Source of the DNA: Heliocidaris erythrogramma
Lineage: Eukaryota > Echinodermata > Echinoidea > Camarodonta > Echinometridae
Length of the DNA stretch: 64,000 bases
NCBI GenBank assembly: GCA_025617745.1
Contig: CM046872.1
Coordinates: 868,001-932,000, forward strand
Reading direction: 5' to 3'
Below are positions 1,385-63,458 of the stretch, one piece after another; within the stretch, counting starts at the first letter, position 1, and each line of letters opens with the position of its first letter. The notes under the pieces are model-generated. The model did not search any database. It saw nothing but the letters and a program-made list of their open reading frames with translations, and was not told the DNA's origin. The translations under genes were made by a program, and so were the position numbers.

Positions 1385-30627
<29,243 letters not shown>

Positions 30628-41340: not shown

Positions 41341-41908
41341 AAATTCTCGTTGCCTGTTATCAGACATTTCACCATGTACCTGATATTTTTTTATATACAT
41401 TCATGACTATAAAGCGAGTTGTTCAAGCAGCGAGGTGCCGGTACAGCACACAGAATGTAGAAACAAAATAACCCCATTCCTGGTGTAAGGAGGGATATTG
41501 AAAAACAATGGATGATTACAGTGCTTCAAATATTGTAGGGCTGTAAGCAGGTAGCAAGCGTATGAGGTGGGGCCCCTCAAAGTGTTTGCCCCCCCCCCCA
41601 AAAAAAAAACCCTTCTGTTCACGACTATTTCAAACATAAGTGTCACGGTAACGACATATCCTGCAATTGTCTATATTCTACGTACGAAGAGTGAATTAAC
41701 AGTTCATGACATTGTGACAGTCAAACGCACACTTTTGAACCAGTGTATAAAACAAAAGGAAATTGTTAGTCGTTTTACGTGACATTTTACTCATAATTCT
41801 ATTTGCTCATGTATTTGACTGTAGGGATAATGGTCATTAGACATAATGGCATTGAGCCCCTCTTCTTAATTAGTGCCGCCCATGGGCCACTTGCGGCCCG
41901 CCAAAATA

Positions 41909-42316
41909 TCTAATTTGAAAAAAAAAATCTTAAGTTTTAAGTAATATCCTAACTATCGGTATGATTACACCCCCTGGGGGTGTTTCATAAAGCTGTTCGT
42001 AAAGTTACGCATGACTTTACGAACGACTGGAACATGTTCGTGGGTGCTATACTAATCAGATTCTCAATCATTTGAGATATCTAATTTGAAAAAAAATCTT
42101 AAGTTTTAAGTAATATCCTAATTATCGGTATGATTACACCCCCTGGGGGTGTTTCATAAAGCTGTTCGTAAAGTTACGCATGACTTTACGAACGACTGGA
42201 ACATGTTCTTGGGTTCTATACTAATCAGATTCTCAATCATTTAGCACAAGAACTGATCACCAGTCGTGCGTAAAGTCGTGCGTAACTTACGAACAGCTTT
42301 ATGAAACACCCCCAGG
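41909..42316. mobile_element. Inverted-end element with an internal 169-bp tandem duplication
   Basis: The block ending in CTGGGGGTGTTTCATAAAGC recurs 169 bp downstream (TGTTTCATAA at 41981 and 42150), including TCTAATTTGAAAAAAAA, CTTAAGTTTTAAGTAATATC and GACTTTACGAACGACTGG. The right end at about 42260-42316 is the inverted complement of the TTTCATAAAGCTGTTCGTAA segment. So one end of a fold-back element has been duplicated in tandem. No protein is encoded. Confidence 0.85.
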
Positions 42317-44662: not shown

Positions 44663-45113
44663 AAAGGGACAGTCCACTCTGATATCAACTTGATTTCTAA
44701 AAGACGCAGACAAATTAAAAAACAGATCAGCGAAAGTTTGAGTAAAATCCGATAAGAAATAAGAAAGTTATGAATTTTTGAAGTTGTAATCAATCAAACA
44801 CAAAATGGCAACTCCGTGACTTATTTTGCGAGCTCATCTCCAATTCGCCCTGTCGCTATCATTATGCCACTTATGCTTTTACCCAAAACCTATATTATAC
44901 AAATCTATGCCCTCATCAAAACAAAGAAAATGAAATTTTATGAATTCAAGGAGTTGCCAATTTGTGTTAGATTGATTACAACTTTCATAACTTGATTACA
45001 ATTCATAACTTTCTTATTTCGTATCGGGTTTTGCTCAAACTTTCACTAATCTGTTTCTCTATTTTTTCTTCTTTTATTCAAATGAACTTCATACCAGAGT
45101 GGACTTTCCCTTT
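44663..45113. mobile_element. Second copy of the 10714-type fold-back family
   Basis: The left end AAAGGGACAGTCCACTCTG is mirrored by AAAGGGAAAGTCCACTCTGG read from the right end. The arms continue inward through CGAAAGTTTGAGTAAAA and AATAAGAAAGTTATGAATTT, words shared with the element at 10714-11305. The interior is shorter, and no transposase is visible. Confidence 0.78.
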
Positions 45114-49452: not shown

Positions 49453-49756
49453 GATAATTGCATACCATTATTACTATTTTTACAGGGTATCTTGATAAAT
49501 ACATTTTTATTTCGTCATATGCCCCTTAAAATGACTATTTAGGTACATTTGTACCATAAAGAAATCACAATGTTTAGTTTGTGCGTCTATTCAACTCAAT
49601 GTGAAGTTTGCTTTAGTTGTTATAATATTGTTACAAAGAAAAGGATATTAATGTTCTGACAGGGAAAGAAAATTTTCGTTTCAGAGATGAGGACATGTGT
49701 ATTGTCATGTAAAGCAGTAAGGTATTCAGTGAACATGAACAGAATAATTATGGGTA

Positions 49757-49992
49757 ATAGACCGGTTCTGTAATGTATTCAAATTTATGCACATTTCTTC
49801 TCTGAGGACCTAGTGACGACCTATTCCATTAATTAACCTGCTTTTTATAAATGAGCCTCAATGCTTGGAATCCAGTTTGCATACATTACTTGTTGCTATA
49901 TCTGACAAGCCTCCGGCAAGCTTTCAGGTTGTCAAGAACAACCTTTGTTTGAAAGGTATTAATGTGCAATTATCGAAGCGGTGTATTGAACA
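49757..49992. mobile_element. Non-autonomous element related to 63225-63458
   Basis: It shares long near-identical stretches with the element at the right of the window, including GGAATCCAGTTTGCATACAT, TACTTGTTGCTAT and CAAGCTTTCAGGTTGTCA. The terminal inverted repeat seen in the other copy is degenerate here. Confidence 0.7.
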
Positions 49993-56342: not shown

Positions 56343-56960
56343 CATCTTGTCTCCGTTGATGGTGGGGGTAAGAGCAGATGGTAGCAAGGAGAAATAAAGG
56401 AATAGGTTAACTGGTGCAAGACATGAGAAAGCTAGGTGTGGGAGGATGAGGAGATGGATAATGAGGAGGAAGGATAGAAGGCCAGGGGAAGATGAGAAGG
56501 GTGGGTCTGAAAGGGAGAACGACACCGTGTATTCGTTGATGGTTACGGATAGAACAGAGTAAACAAGGAAAAAGAAGGACAGGGTTAACTGACGTAAGAA
56601 ATAAGGACGATAGGCGCGGGAGGATCGGGATATAAAGGAAAAGGTGAAGGGAGATGAGGAGAAGAGGAAGAGAAAGAGGAGGCGGAGAAGTAGAAGAAGG
56701 CCTTGTGGAGAGGAAGGGGGGGGGGTAATGAATGAGAGAGAGAAAGAGAGAGAGAGATAGAGAGAGAGAAAGAAAGAGAGAGAGTGTGTGTGAAGGATGA
56801 GGGGAAGGAGGAGTACAAAGATGGAGTAAAAATGGAGTGAAAGAAGGAGAGGATGTGGGGAGAAGAAGGAAGGAGAGTTGAGGGAAGAAATTAGGAGGGA
56901 TGACAAGAGGAAGAAGACGAAATAAGATATAAGACAAAGTTGAAAACACAATTAAAAATG
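56343..56960. repeat. About 600-bp purine-biased (AGG/GAA/GA) tract
   Basis: The plus strand is overwhelmingly A and G, with (GA)n at about 56733-56784. It keeps two minus-strand frames open for more than 200 codons, but these encode Ser/Leu/Pro/Phe-rich low-complexity text with no domain, so I treat them as artefacts. Confidence 0.88.
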
Positions 56961-57092
56961 GATATAGGCTAAGTTGATGAGACAAATTAATGAAAATAAA
57001 AGCAACAGAACTAAACTGGCTTGGGACAGATATCCGAAAGAATTTCAAGTTCCAATTCCCGATTCAACAGTATATATATATATATATATGTG

Positions 57093-57376
57093 TGTGAAAG
57101 AAATTGCGAGAATAACGTTGCGTAGCTCAATCAAAGTTCCCCAGAGCTGTCCTCCCTTTTTGAAATTTTTGCAAAGGCTGAAAAAATGTCTCCGCCGGGA
57201 ATCGAACCCGGGTCGTTGGCTTAGAACGCCAATGCCTTAACCACTAGACCACGGAGACGGGTTAGTGGTTTCGGCGACACCAGATTCAATTGACCGACAG
57301 ACTGACAAATCCTCAACCTTATTAATTAATTCCTTTGTCGGGGGCAGGTGAGTTTTGAACAAAGACAAGCCGCGTG
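57093..57376. repeat. Left arm of the 284-bp tRNA-bearing inverted repeat
   Basis: This arm is the reverse complement of 57500-57783 over its whole length, with one mismatch seen by eye (GCGAG against GCTAG near the outer end). The arms are the same length. It contains the minus-strand tRNA gene and both its flanks. A (TA)n tract sits just outside it at 57071-57090. Confidence 0.95.
57188..57258 (-). tRNA. tRNA with anticodon UCU (Arg by anticodon), left copy
   Basis: 71 bases folding as a complete cloverleaf: 7-bp acceptor stem (GTCTCCG/CGGAGAC), T8, a D-arm with an AGTGGTTA loop, a 5-bp anticodon stem (TTGGC/GCCAA) with loop GTTCTAA, a 4-base variable loop, and a perfect T-stem (CCGGG/CCCGG) with loop TTCGATT. 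The internal RNA polymerase III A-box (TGGTCTAGTGG) and B-box (GGTTCGATTCC) are intact. A run of six T follows the 3' end on the transcribed strand, as a terminator. There is no intron and no encoded CCA, as expected in eukaryotes. G32 is atypical. Confidence 0.9.
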
Positions 57377-57499
57377 TAATTATTTCCACGAGATTTGCCA
57401 AAGCTGTTGTATATGTTATTTCCTTACAATAATGTTATTAAGAATAATTTATTCCAATGTATACATGTATTCAAAGCATTCGCTTGGATCCAGCTGAGG
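57377..57499. repeat. 123-bp spacer of the palindrome, with one copy of a 51-bp direct repeat
   Basis: Bases 57377-57427 are repeated in the same orientation at 57788-57838, just outside the right arm. The remainder of the spacer is unique in this window. Confidence 0.9.
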
Positions 57500-57783
57500 C
57501 ACGCGGCTTGTCTTTGTTCAAAACTCACCTGCCCCCGACAAAGGAATTAATTAATAAGGTTGAGGATTTGTCAGTCTGTCGGTCAATTGAATCTGGTGTC
57601 GCCGAAACCACTAACCCGTCTCCGTGGTCTAGTGGTTAAGGCATTGGCGTTCTAAGCCAACGACCCGGGTTCGATTCCCGGCGGAGACATTTTTTCAGCC
57701 TTTGCAAAAATTTCAAAAAGGGAGGACAGCTCTGGGGAACTTTGATTGAGCTACGCAACGTTATTCTAGCAATTTCTTTCACA
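57500..57783. repeat. Right arm of the 284-bp tRNA-bearing inverted repeat
   Basis: Reverse complement of 57093-57376, containing the plus-strand tRNA gene. It is followed directly by the second 51-bp direct-repeat copy and then a TA-rich tract at about 57838-57862. Confidence 0.95.
57618..57688 (+). tRNA. tRNA with anticodon UCU (Arg by anticodon), right copy
   Basis: Sequence identical to the left copy but on the opposite strand, so the two genes are transcribed away from each other. All stems, both internal promoter boxes, base A at position 73 and the downstream T6 terminator at 57690-57695 are intact. Nothing marks either copy as a pseudogene. Confidence 0.92.
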
Positions 57784-58159
57784 TTTGTAATTATTTCCAC
57801 GAGATTTGCCAAAGCTGTTGTATATGTTATTTCCTTATTATATATATATATTTATATTTATATAATTCAGAAAAGTTCAACAACAGTTTTTAGGTCAGTA
57901 TTGATTTTTTCATCCCTTTGTGTCATTACCATCACATAATCTCAACAGCTCTAAAGATTCTGATCTAGGGGGAGTCAAATCCAGCTTTGAATTTATTTGA
58001 ATTATGCATGGTTTTGCTAAGTCCGCGGTAATAGGTTGCATATAAGAATTATTGCATTTCCAAGCCTTTGAAAAACGCTGTTTCCTTTGCACTTTACCCT
58101 GGAGTGTAGATGTGAAATTAAATGCAATTGTGGAAACATGAGCGGGGAAAGCGATCGAG

Positions 58160-58545: not shown

Positions 58546-59539
58546 CCCGGCCAGAGAATCTTTGATCCGCCACTGAACTGATACACATATGAATAACATA
58601 TGCAACTCGTTAATGAGATAAAACAATGACCAATTGAATTTATGTACATACGTATTTTCATTTATTCAAAACAGGCAATTTAATACTTCTCTTTCTCGCT
58701 TTCCTTCCTTGAAAATATACAAGACAGTATCATTTTTAACACACATTTCTCGATGTGGTATTTCATCCTCACACTCTTAATTAAAAATCATGTCATCTTC
58801 TACACGTTCAAATATAAAGGTCTATCATTATACTTCAAACCTATTACAGAACTCCAATATTGGCTGAATACGATCTATGAAAATACAATACAATTATGGA
58901 TTCGTGATCATGCAGAAAGAAACAAAAAGAAAGAAAGCCATGTAGCCTCCTTCCTCAAACACCGATTCCCTCTTTTCCTTCCCGACGTGATCAATGCCAA
59001 CTTGATTTTGAAAGAAAAAAAAACCGCTTCGGCCATTCTTATCCCGTTTTTTCATGACATAATTTTGCTGCCCATACAATGTGTGTGCTATACGTATTTC
59101 GGTGTGCTAAAAAAATGGCCGCTACTGACCTCGTGTTTACAATCCTTGCCAAAATGGTGCACACTCTATGGACAGCTAATGCCATTCAAAGCAACTTAAA
59201 CGGAAACCAAATTATCATAATTACTGACAACACATGCTCTGACATCTCGATACATTTTCAATTGTAGGATTACATAATCATAATTGAAGCAAACAGTATA
59301 TTAACATTGTCATATTTTTAGAAAAAAAGTAATGTCTCTAATCGCCGTTGTATGAAACATAACCATCAACCATGATCCTCATCTTATTAGGACAAAATTT
59401 GGCAATAATTATGTAACTACACAATCGATATTGTAATAAAGGGACTATATAGTGAGACGTATACCAGCCTATTCTGACGACATGTTTCTTAAATTCGCCG
59501 GTCTTCTGATCGGAAGCCAGCCGTCACTGAACGATTAAA
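58546..59539. other. Intergenic stretch with an unrecognised 148-codon frame
   Basis: The plus frame 58753-59199 encodes a hydrophobic, aromatic-rich text with no known motif, at AT-rich composition where such frames arise by chance. I do not call it a gene. Confidence 0.5.
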
Positions 59540-60075
59540 GCATCTCAATGAAATTACATATTGATTGTGCAACCAGACAATTATTTCCAATTTCCTCGAC
59601 ACATTAGTACCAAAAATACACAGGTATCCAGACATAATGATAATTATGTTATGAATTGCATAAAAAACATAACAGAACAGAGCTTTCGAACTTCAAAACA
59701 AATAGATTGTCCAATGTGAAGAAACATCGCTCAAAAGATAACAAAATAGTCTATTTGACGGTCGTATTTAGCCTGTACTATTAAACCTAGAAAAGTTCTT
59801 TCCGTCATCATTGAAGGATTAACGCAATCTCAATGAAATTACATATTGATTGTATAACCAGACAATTATTTCCAATTTCCTCGACACATTAGTACCGAAA
59901 ATACACAGGTATCCAGACATAATGATAAATATGTTATGAAAATTGCATAAAAAAACATAACAGAACAGAGCTTTCAAACTTCAAAACAACATAGATTGTC
60001 AAAATAAAATGTGAAGAAACATCGCTCAATATAGATAACAAATAGTCTATTTGACGGTCCCATTTAGCCCGTATT
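59540..60075. repeat. Two-copy tandem duplication, offset about 285 bp
   Basis: ATCTCAATGAAATTACATAT begins at 59542 and again at 59827. The copies match through CCAGACAATTATTTCCAATT, ACACAGGTATCCAGACATAA and AGTCTATTTGACGGTC with minor indels. Confidence 0.92.
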
Positions 60076-63145: not shown

Positions 63146-63224
63146 CAGAGAGTAAGTACAATTTTATAATATAGTACAGTACATGTAACAATCCAATTGT
63201 TTCCCAATGCATGAATTCATGGAA

Positions 63225-63458
63225 ATAGGGCGGTTTACGTAGTGATTAAAATTTATGGATGTTCCTTTCCTGGGGACCTAGTAACGAGGTATTCCATTAA
63301 CCTATTATTAATGAATGAACTACAATACTTGGAATCCAGTTTGCATACATTACTTGTTGCTATGTCGGGCAAGCCTCGGGCAAGCTTTCAGGTTGTCACG
63401 AACAACCTTTGTTTCAAAAGTATGCATAAAATTTGAATCGCTACGTAAACCGCCCTAT
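63225..63458. mobile_element. 234-bp MITE with perfect 18-bp terminal inverted repeats
   Basis: ATAGGGCGGTTTACGTAG at 63225-63242 is exactly inverted at 63441-63458 (CTACGTAAACCGCCCTAT). The interior has no transposase and is closely related to 49757-49992. The intact termini suggest a younger copy. The 64-codon frame inside is incidental. Confidence 0.9.

Follow-up and report, generated by a model that had tools for sequence, protein, structure and literature searches.

Two mirrored tRNA genes and the repeats around them

A stretch of 64,000 nucleotides from the sea urchin Heliocidaris erythrogramma (contig CM046872.1 of assembly GCA_025617745.1, forward-strand positions 868,001 to 932,000), hereafter termed the window, was analyzed computationally with respect to a pair of tRNA genes that stand in mirror image within a long inverted repeat. 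Both were identified as tRNA-Arg(tct) by ARAGORN, run in bacterial-code mode, which listed no further tRNA in the window, and both were scored at 65.5 bits by the Rfam covariance model RF00005, whose gathering score is 29; no other match in the window reached gathering level. Each copy thus combines a tRNA structure with a covariance-model score above the cut-off, the combination by which a nuclear tRNA gene is recognized. The features of the locus are as follows, with the source of each in brackets.

57071-57096, no strand: (TA)9(TG)4 tract at the left edge of the duplication, overlapping the left arm by its final 4 bp (sequence)
57093-57376, minus: left arm (A), 284 bp, with one tRNA gene (repeat search and base comparison)
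57181-57186, minus: run of six Ts (six As on the plus strand), likely RNA polymerase III terminator of the minus-strand tRNA gene (sequence)
57187-57258, minus: tRNA-Arg(TCT) gene, 72 bp, without intron (ARAGORN; RF00005)
57375-57426, plus: S1, the first member of a 52-bp direct repeat, which begins with the TG that ends the left arm (sequence comparison)
57427-57499, no strand: F, the 73 bp that separate S1 from the right arm (sequence comparison)
57500-57783, plus: right arm (A'), 284 bp, equal to the left arm in reverse complement except at one position (repeat search and base comparison)
57618-57689, plus: tRNA-Arg(TCT) gene, 72 bp, without intron (ARAGORN; RF00005)
57690-57695, plus: run of six Ts, likely RNA polymerase III terminator of the plus-strand tRNA gene (sequence)
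57784-57785, no strand: TT between the right arm and S2 (sequence)
57786-57837, plus: S2, the other member of the 52-bp direct repeat, past the right arm and two Ts (sequence comparison)
57839-57850, no strand: (TA)6 tract at the right edge of the duplication (sequence)

The two genes are antiparallel, minus then plus, and point outward with their 5' ends 359 bp apart. An earlier note made from the letters alone had described two divergent tRNA genes, one in each arm, complete with its own six-T terminator, and this description is borne out by ARAGORN, by the RF00005 scores and by the T runs. Inspected by eye, the internal-promoter boxes of both genes look normal against what we take to be their consensus. 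Judged from their sequence, the two intact, head-to-head genes should yield the same tRNA, i.e. two doses of it, and there is no need to invoke for the pair a function beyond gene dosage.

The dimensions given in the earlier note, i.e. 284-bp arms with one difference and a separation of 123 bp, were likewise recovered by repeat search of the window and base-by-base comparison. The single mismatch lies at 57108, the 16th base from the outer end, with G in the left arm and T in the reverse-complemented right arm, and the longest uninterrupted match between the arms is 268 bp. In each of 20 simulated 64-kb windows generated from the window's own dinucleotide frequencies, exact inverted matches reached 16-18 bp at most, and chance origin of the arms is ruled out by the distance between these values and 268 bp. 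The runner-up exact inverted match in the window is 37 bp and pairs one AT microsatellite with another; simple repeats of the window thus surpass the simulated values, yet stay far below the length seen in the arms.

When the DNA was folded as a single strand, a free energy of -394.1 kcal/mol was obtained, where 20 shuffles averaged -81.95, so that the large cruciform proposed in the earlier note is physically possible, and a hairpin or cruciform may form according to this model. The hazard implied there appears real but reduced with a spacer of 123 bp, hence weaker than supposed, because longer spacers cut recombination and rearrangement in yeast. In the available text of PMC10164571, inverted-repeat recombination between Alu inverted repeats in double-stranded DNA is cited from earlier work as 300-fold lower with a spacer of 100 bp in place of 12 bp, and rearrangement in wild-type yeast is about 20-fold lower from 12 to 200 bp, whereas in long single-stranded DNA spacer size is without effect.

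The locus also holds the exact direct repeat S, absent from the earlier note, whose two copies are identical at all 52 of 52 positions. The whole block can be read in the order U-A-S-F-A'-tt-S-Z, in which U and Z are the left and right flanks and tt the two Ts, and A, in whichever orientation, precedes S either directly or with two Ts between. The structure is therefore a local duplication of A plus S (57093-57426, 334 bp) in which A is inverted in one copy and 73 bp lie between the copies. A plain palindrome or fold-back duplication was rejected as S comes after the right arm in direct orientation, and an order with the spacer flipped was weighed and found no simpler than the one given. As for the 73 bp, no convincing relative was found elsewhere in the window: a search with 72 of them gave short, weak matches, of which the best covers 22 bp at E 0.008. 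Both outer limits of the duplication fall within 5 bp of (TA)n tracts; the window contains eight (TA) or (AT) runs of at least 10 bp, only 0.48% of its positions lie within 8 bp of one, and both outer limits are among them, a feature that was noticed after the fact and speaks for the origin proposed below.

A single recent rearrangement and its rivals

A very recent local rearrangement, in which a segment of about 334 bp (the 284-bp tRNA part together with S) was doubled and one of the two 284-bp parts came to lie in inverted orientation, is probably the origin of the pair as far as the letters can tell. The recency proposed in the earlier note is supported by how little the duplicated parts differ, namely at 1 of 284 positions in the arms and at 0 of 52 in the separate repeat S.

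In the mechanism judged likeliest, which would belong to template switching or microhomology-mediated repair synthesis, replication or repair synthesis would stall at the (TA)n tracts, switch to the opposite strand and copy A backwards, and then switch back to copy S before resuming. Two ancestral orders can be envisaged. If the ancestor was U-A-S-Z, synthesis would have exited at 57426, F and the TT would have been taken from elsewhere or be random, A would have been copied backwards from 57376 to 57093, and synthesis would have resumed at 57375. If the ancestor was U-F-A'-tt-S-Z, synthesis would have exited at the left tract, the single tRNA unit would have been copied backwards from 57783 to 57500, S would have been joined at the shared TG, and after a halt at the right (TA) tract synthesis would have returned to F. 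The second order, in which A and S at the left are the new pieces, is slightly favoured in our judgement over the first, in which F and the TT are new, because neither F nor the TT then has to come from elsewhere and the A/S junction has 2 bp (TG) of microhomology. Either order entails one coincidence, namely that the inverted and the direct copied pieces start within about 2 bp of each other.

The explanation that survives best beside this one, although it is unlikely, is an older inverted pair whose arms are kept identical by gene conversion or by repeated template switching between them. The near-identity of the arms agrees with such upkeep, as does the position of the sole mismatch close to the outer end, and homogenization of arms together with spacer inversion by template switching has been reported for short inverted repeats in yeast in the available part of PMC8604942. 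However, S is identical throughout even though S2 lies outside the arms, which conversion between arms does not explain and a single recent event explains along with the arms; the single event is the simpler reading because arm-to-arm conversion would not keep S1 and S2 alike. The ongoing conversion suggested in the earlier note is accordingly not needed, and the layout of the locus points away from it.

A related and comparably unlikely proposition concerns the present state of the locus, i.e. that the pair is a segregating, still-unstable allele in which the spacer flips or F and one arm are lost, so that the copy number of tRNA-Arg(TCT) toggles among individuals. The spacer flip and the return to a single gene are possible because the arms and the 52-bp direct repeat permit both.

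Assemblies of heterozygous animals can contain false duplications, and an assembly artefact, either a fold-back read or two haplotypes that differ by an inversion and were joined end to end, is given a slightly smaller chance still. A fold-back would be expected to place the reverse complement of the left flank past the right arm, where the direct copy of S is found instead, and a join of haplotypes would be expected to carry ordinary allelic differences, whereas the copies disagree at one position of the arms and at none of S.

A search for other occurrences of the 284-bp unit, bounded in the same way, gave none in the 64-kb window, nor was a second relative, as would be expected of a tRNA-derived multicopy repeat resembling a short interspersed element (SINE), found within the window. 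An exact 30-base tRNA pattern gave 0 stretches in collections of viral and prokaryotic contigs, a result that says little about animals. The least probable reading, that the 284-bp unit or the whole block at 57093-57837 entered a (TA)n tract as a dispersed or mobile unit bearing a tRNA, draws on the (TA)n present at both outer limits but is opposed by a comparison of 56800-58100 with the window, which gave solely AT and TG simple-repeat matches outside the locus, and by the 38 listed stop-to-stop frames of at least 110 amino acids, 0 of which overlap the block.

Age and setting of the duplication

Local duplication is common in this stretch. The window contains 11 non-self repeat pairs of at least 50 bp, listed with simple repeats masked as seeds and with the main inverted repeat left out by a filter that removes self-overlapping palindromic matches, and four of them besides S1 and S2 are close tandem duplications of 90-97% identity. 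Three pairs in the list lie more than 13 kb apart. The local features of this list are the following.

29148-29233/29230-29314: two-copy tandem duplication, 95.3% identical
41906-42073/42077-42242: tandem duplication, two copies of about 170 bp, 97.0% identical
41973-42030/42260-42316: close inverted pair, 94.8% identical over 58 columns
43901-44079/44074-44251: two-copy tandem duplication, 95.0% identical
44663-44822/44943-45113: inverted repeat, 79.7% identical, 120 bp apart
54007-54072/54202-54262: inverted pair, 87.9% identical
59524-59777/59808-60073: tandem duplication, 90.3% identical, with a repeat unit of about 285 bp, at a distance of 1.7 kb from the tRNA pair

The duplication that made the tRNA pair is the most alike of those listed and so is probably the youngest if constraint is similar, since its parts carry 1 difference in 284 and 0 in 52 positions against the 90-97% identity of the four other tandem duplications. 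Some short-unit arrays are likewise 100% alike, for instance the two 38-bp units at 23542-23618.

Several further observations concern the other repeats of the window. The similar lengths of the unit of about 285 bp at 59524-60073 and of the 284-bp arm look like coincidence. At 41906-42316 the tandem copies of about 170 bp are followed, just past them, by 58 bp of that unit in inverted orientation, which may represent a further local duplication that is partly inverted. The inverted repeat at 44663-45113 has further matches around 11173-11279 and is probably a dispersed element, as is probably the direct repeat of about 81% identity at 49746-49959 and 63214-63423, whose copies lie 13 kb apart. 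A (CTA)n microsatellite of about 1 kb occupies 22463-23502.

With regard to the origin of the DNA, matches to Pfam were obtained in two of the six frames scanned, a homeodomain (PF00046) at 19812-20345 on the minus strand, whose best solved matches are PITX2 and PITX3, and an OAR motif (PF03826) at 1385-1828 on the minus strand. The window is animal nuclear DNA, as the presence of the Pitx-like homeodomain and the OAR motif indicates; standing on the same strand, the two are probably exons of one Pitx-type gene that spans at least 18 kb.

Overall, the locus offers a clean and probably young snapshot of how neighbouring identical tRNA genes arise, in which the breakpoints can still be read along with the direct repeat and the two copies, and studies of how tRNA genes are duplicated by template switching could use it as a test case. 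It illustrates an ordinary process neatly and presents no new kind of genetic element. Existing knowledge of tRNA genes and of inverted repeats is unchanged by it.

Comparison with known systems

Paired tRNA genes are known from Dictyostelium. Among the titles listed in searches of the literature on paired, palindromic and inverted tRNA genes and on sea urchin tRNA genes, which include a plant study of tandem tRNA duplication (PMC12652284), none describes a nuclear mirror-image tRNA pair of this kind. The nearest relatives as gene pairs are those of a survey of tRNA gene clusters across eukaryotes (PMC2888827), of which the following is taken from the part available. Clustering is defined there as a distance within 1000 nt, most adjacent pairs are parallel, head-to-head arrangement is favoured among antiparallel pairs in some species, and local duplication is the prime suspect for the excess of pairs (section 6). 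The present genes agree with head-to-head homogeneous pairs, being of one isotype, less than 1000 nt apart, antiparallel and outward-pointing, and they differ from the typical adjacent pair of that survey, which is parallel. Here the identity moreover runs through about 210 bp of flank and the placing of the copy can be traced from the direct repeat, a level at which the available part of the survey describes no single cases.

Small inverted triplications of the direct/inverted/direct type (DUP/IN/DUP), with breakpoints near microsatellites, are described in the accessible portion of PMC13334657. The likeness lies in an inverted fragment a few hundred bp long with direct copies on either side (S1 and S2 enclose F and the right arm), in a spacer of tens of bp and in microsatellites near the breakpoints. 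Unlike those events, the inverted piece here copies the neighbour of the direct repeat, and only 2 bp (TG) are common to both, so that one defining feature of the type is lacking. The junctions reported there are reverse-complementary over about 6 bp, while 0-2 bp were scored here, the outer TGTG/CACA being indistinguishable from the arms.

Local strand-switch events that leave inverted copies, many with a return point before the exit point, are described along with the four-point template-switch model in the available text of PMC7954356. Our 284-bp inverted copy exceeds the maximum of 128 in the gold-standard set of that work, and 73 + 2 bp are left unexplained by the model under one of the two ancestral orders. 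The course of events is alike in that an inverted copy is templated 123 bp away, the original strand is then resumed with the direct copy of S, and the return point precedes the exit point.
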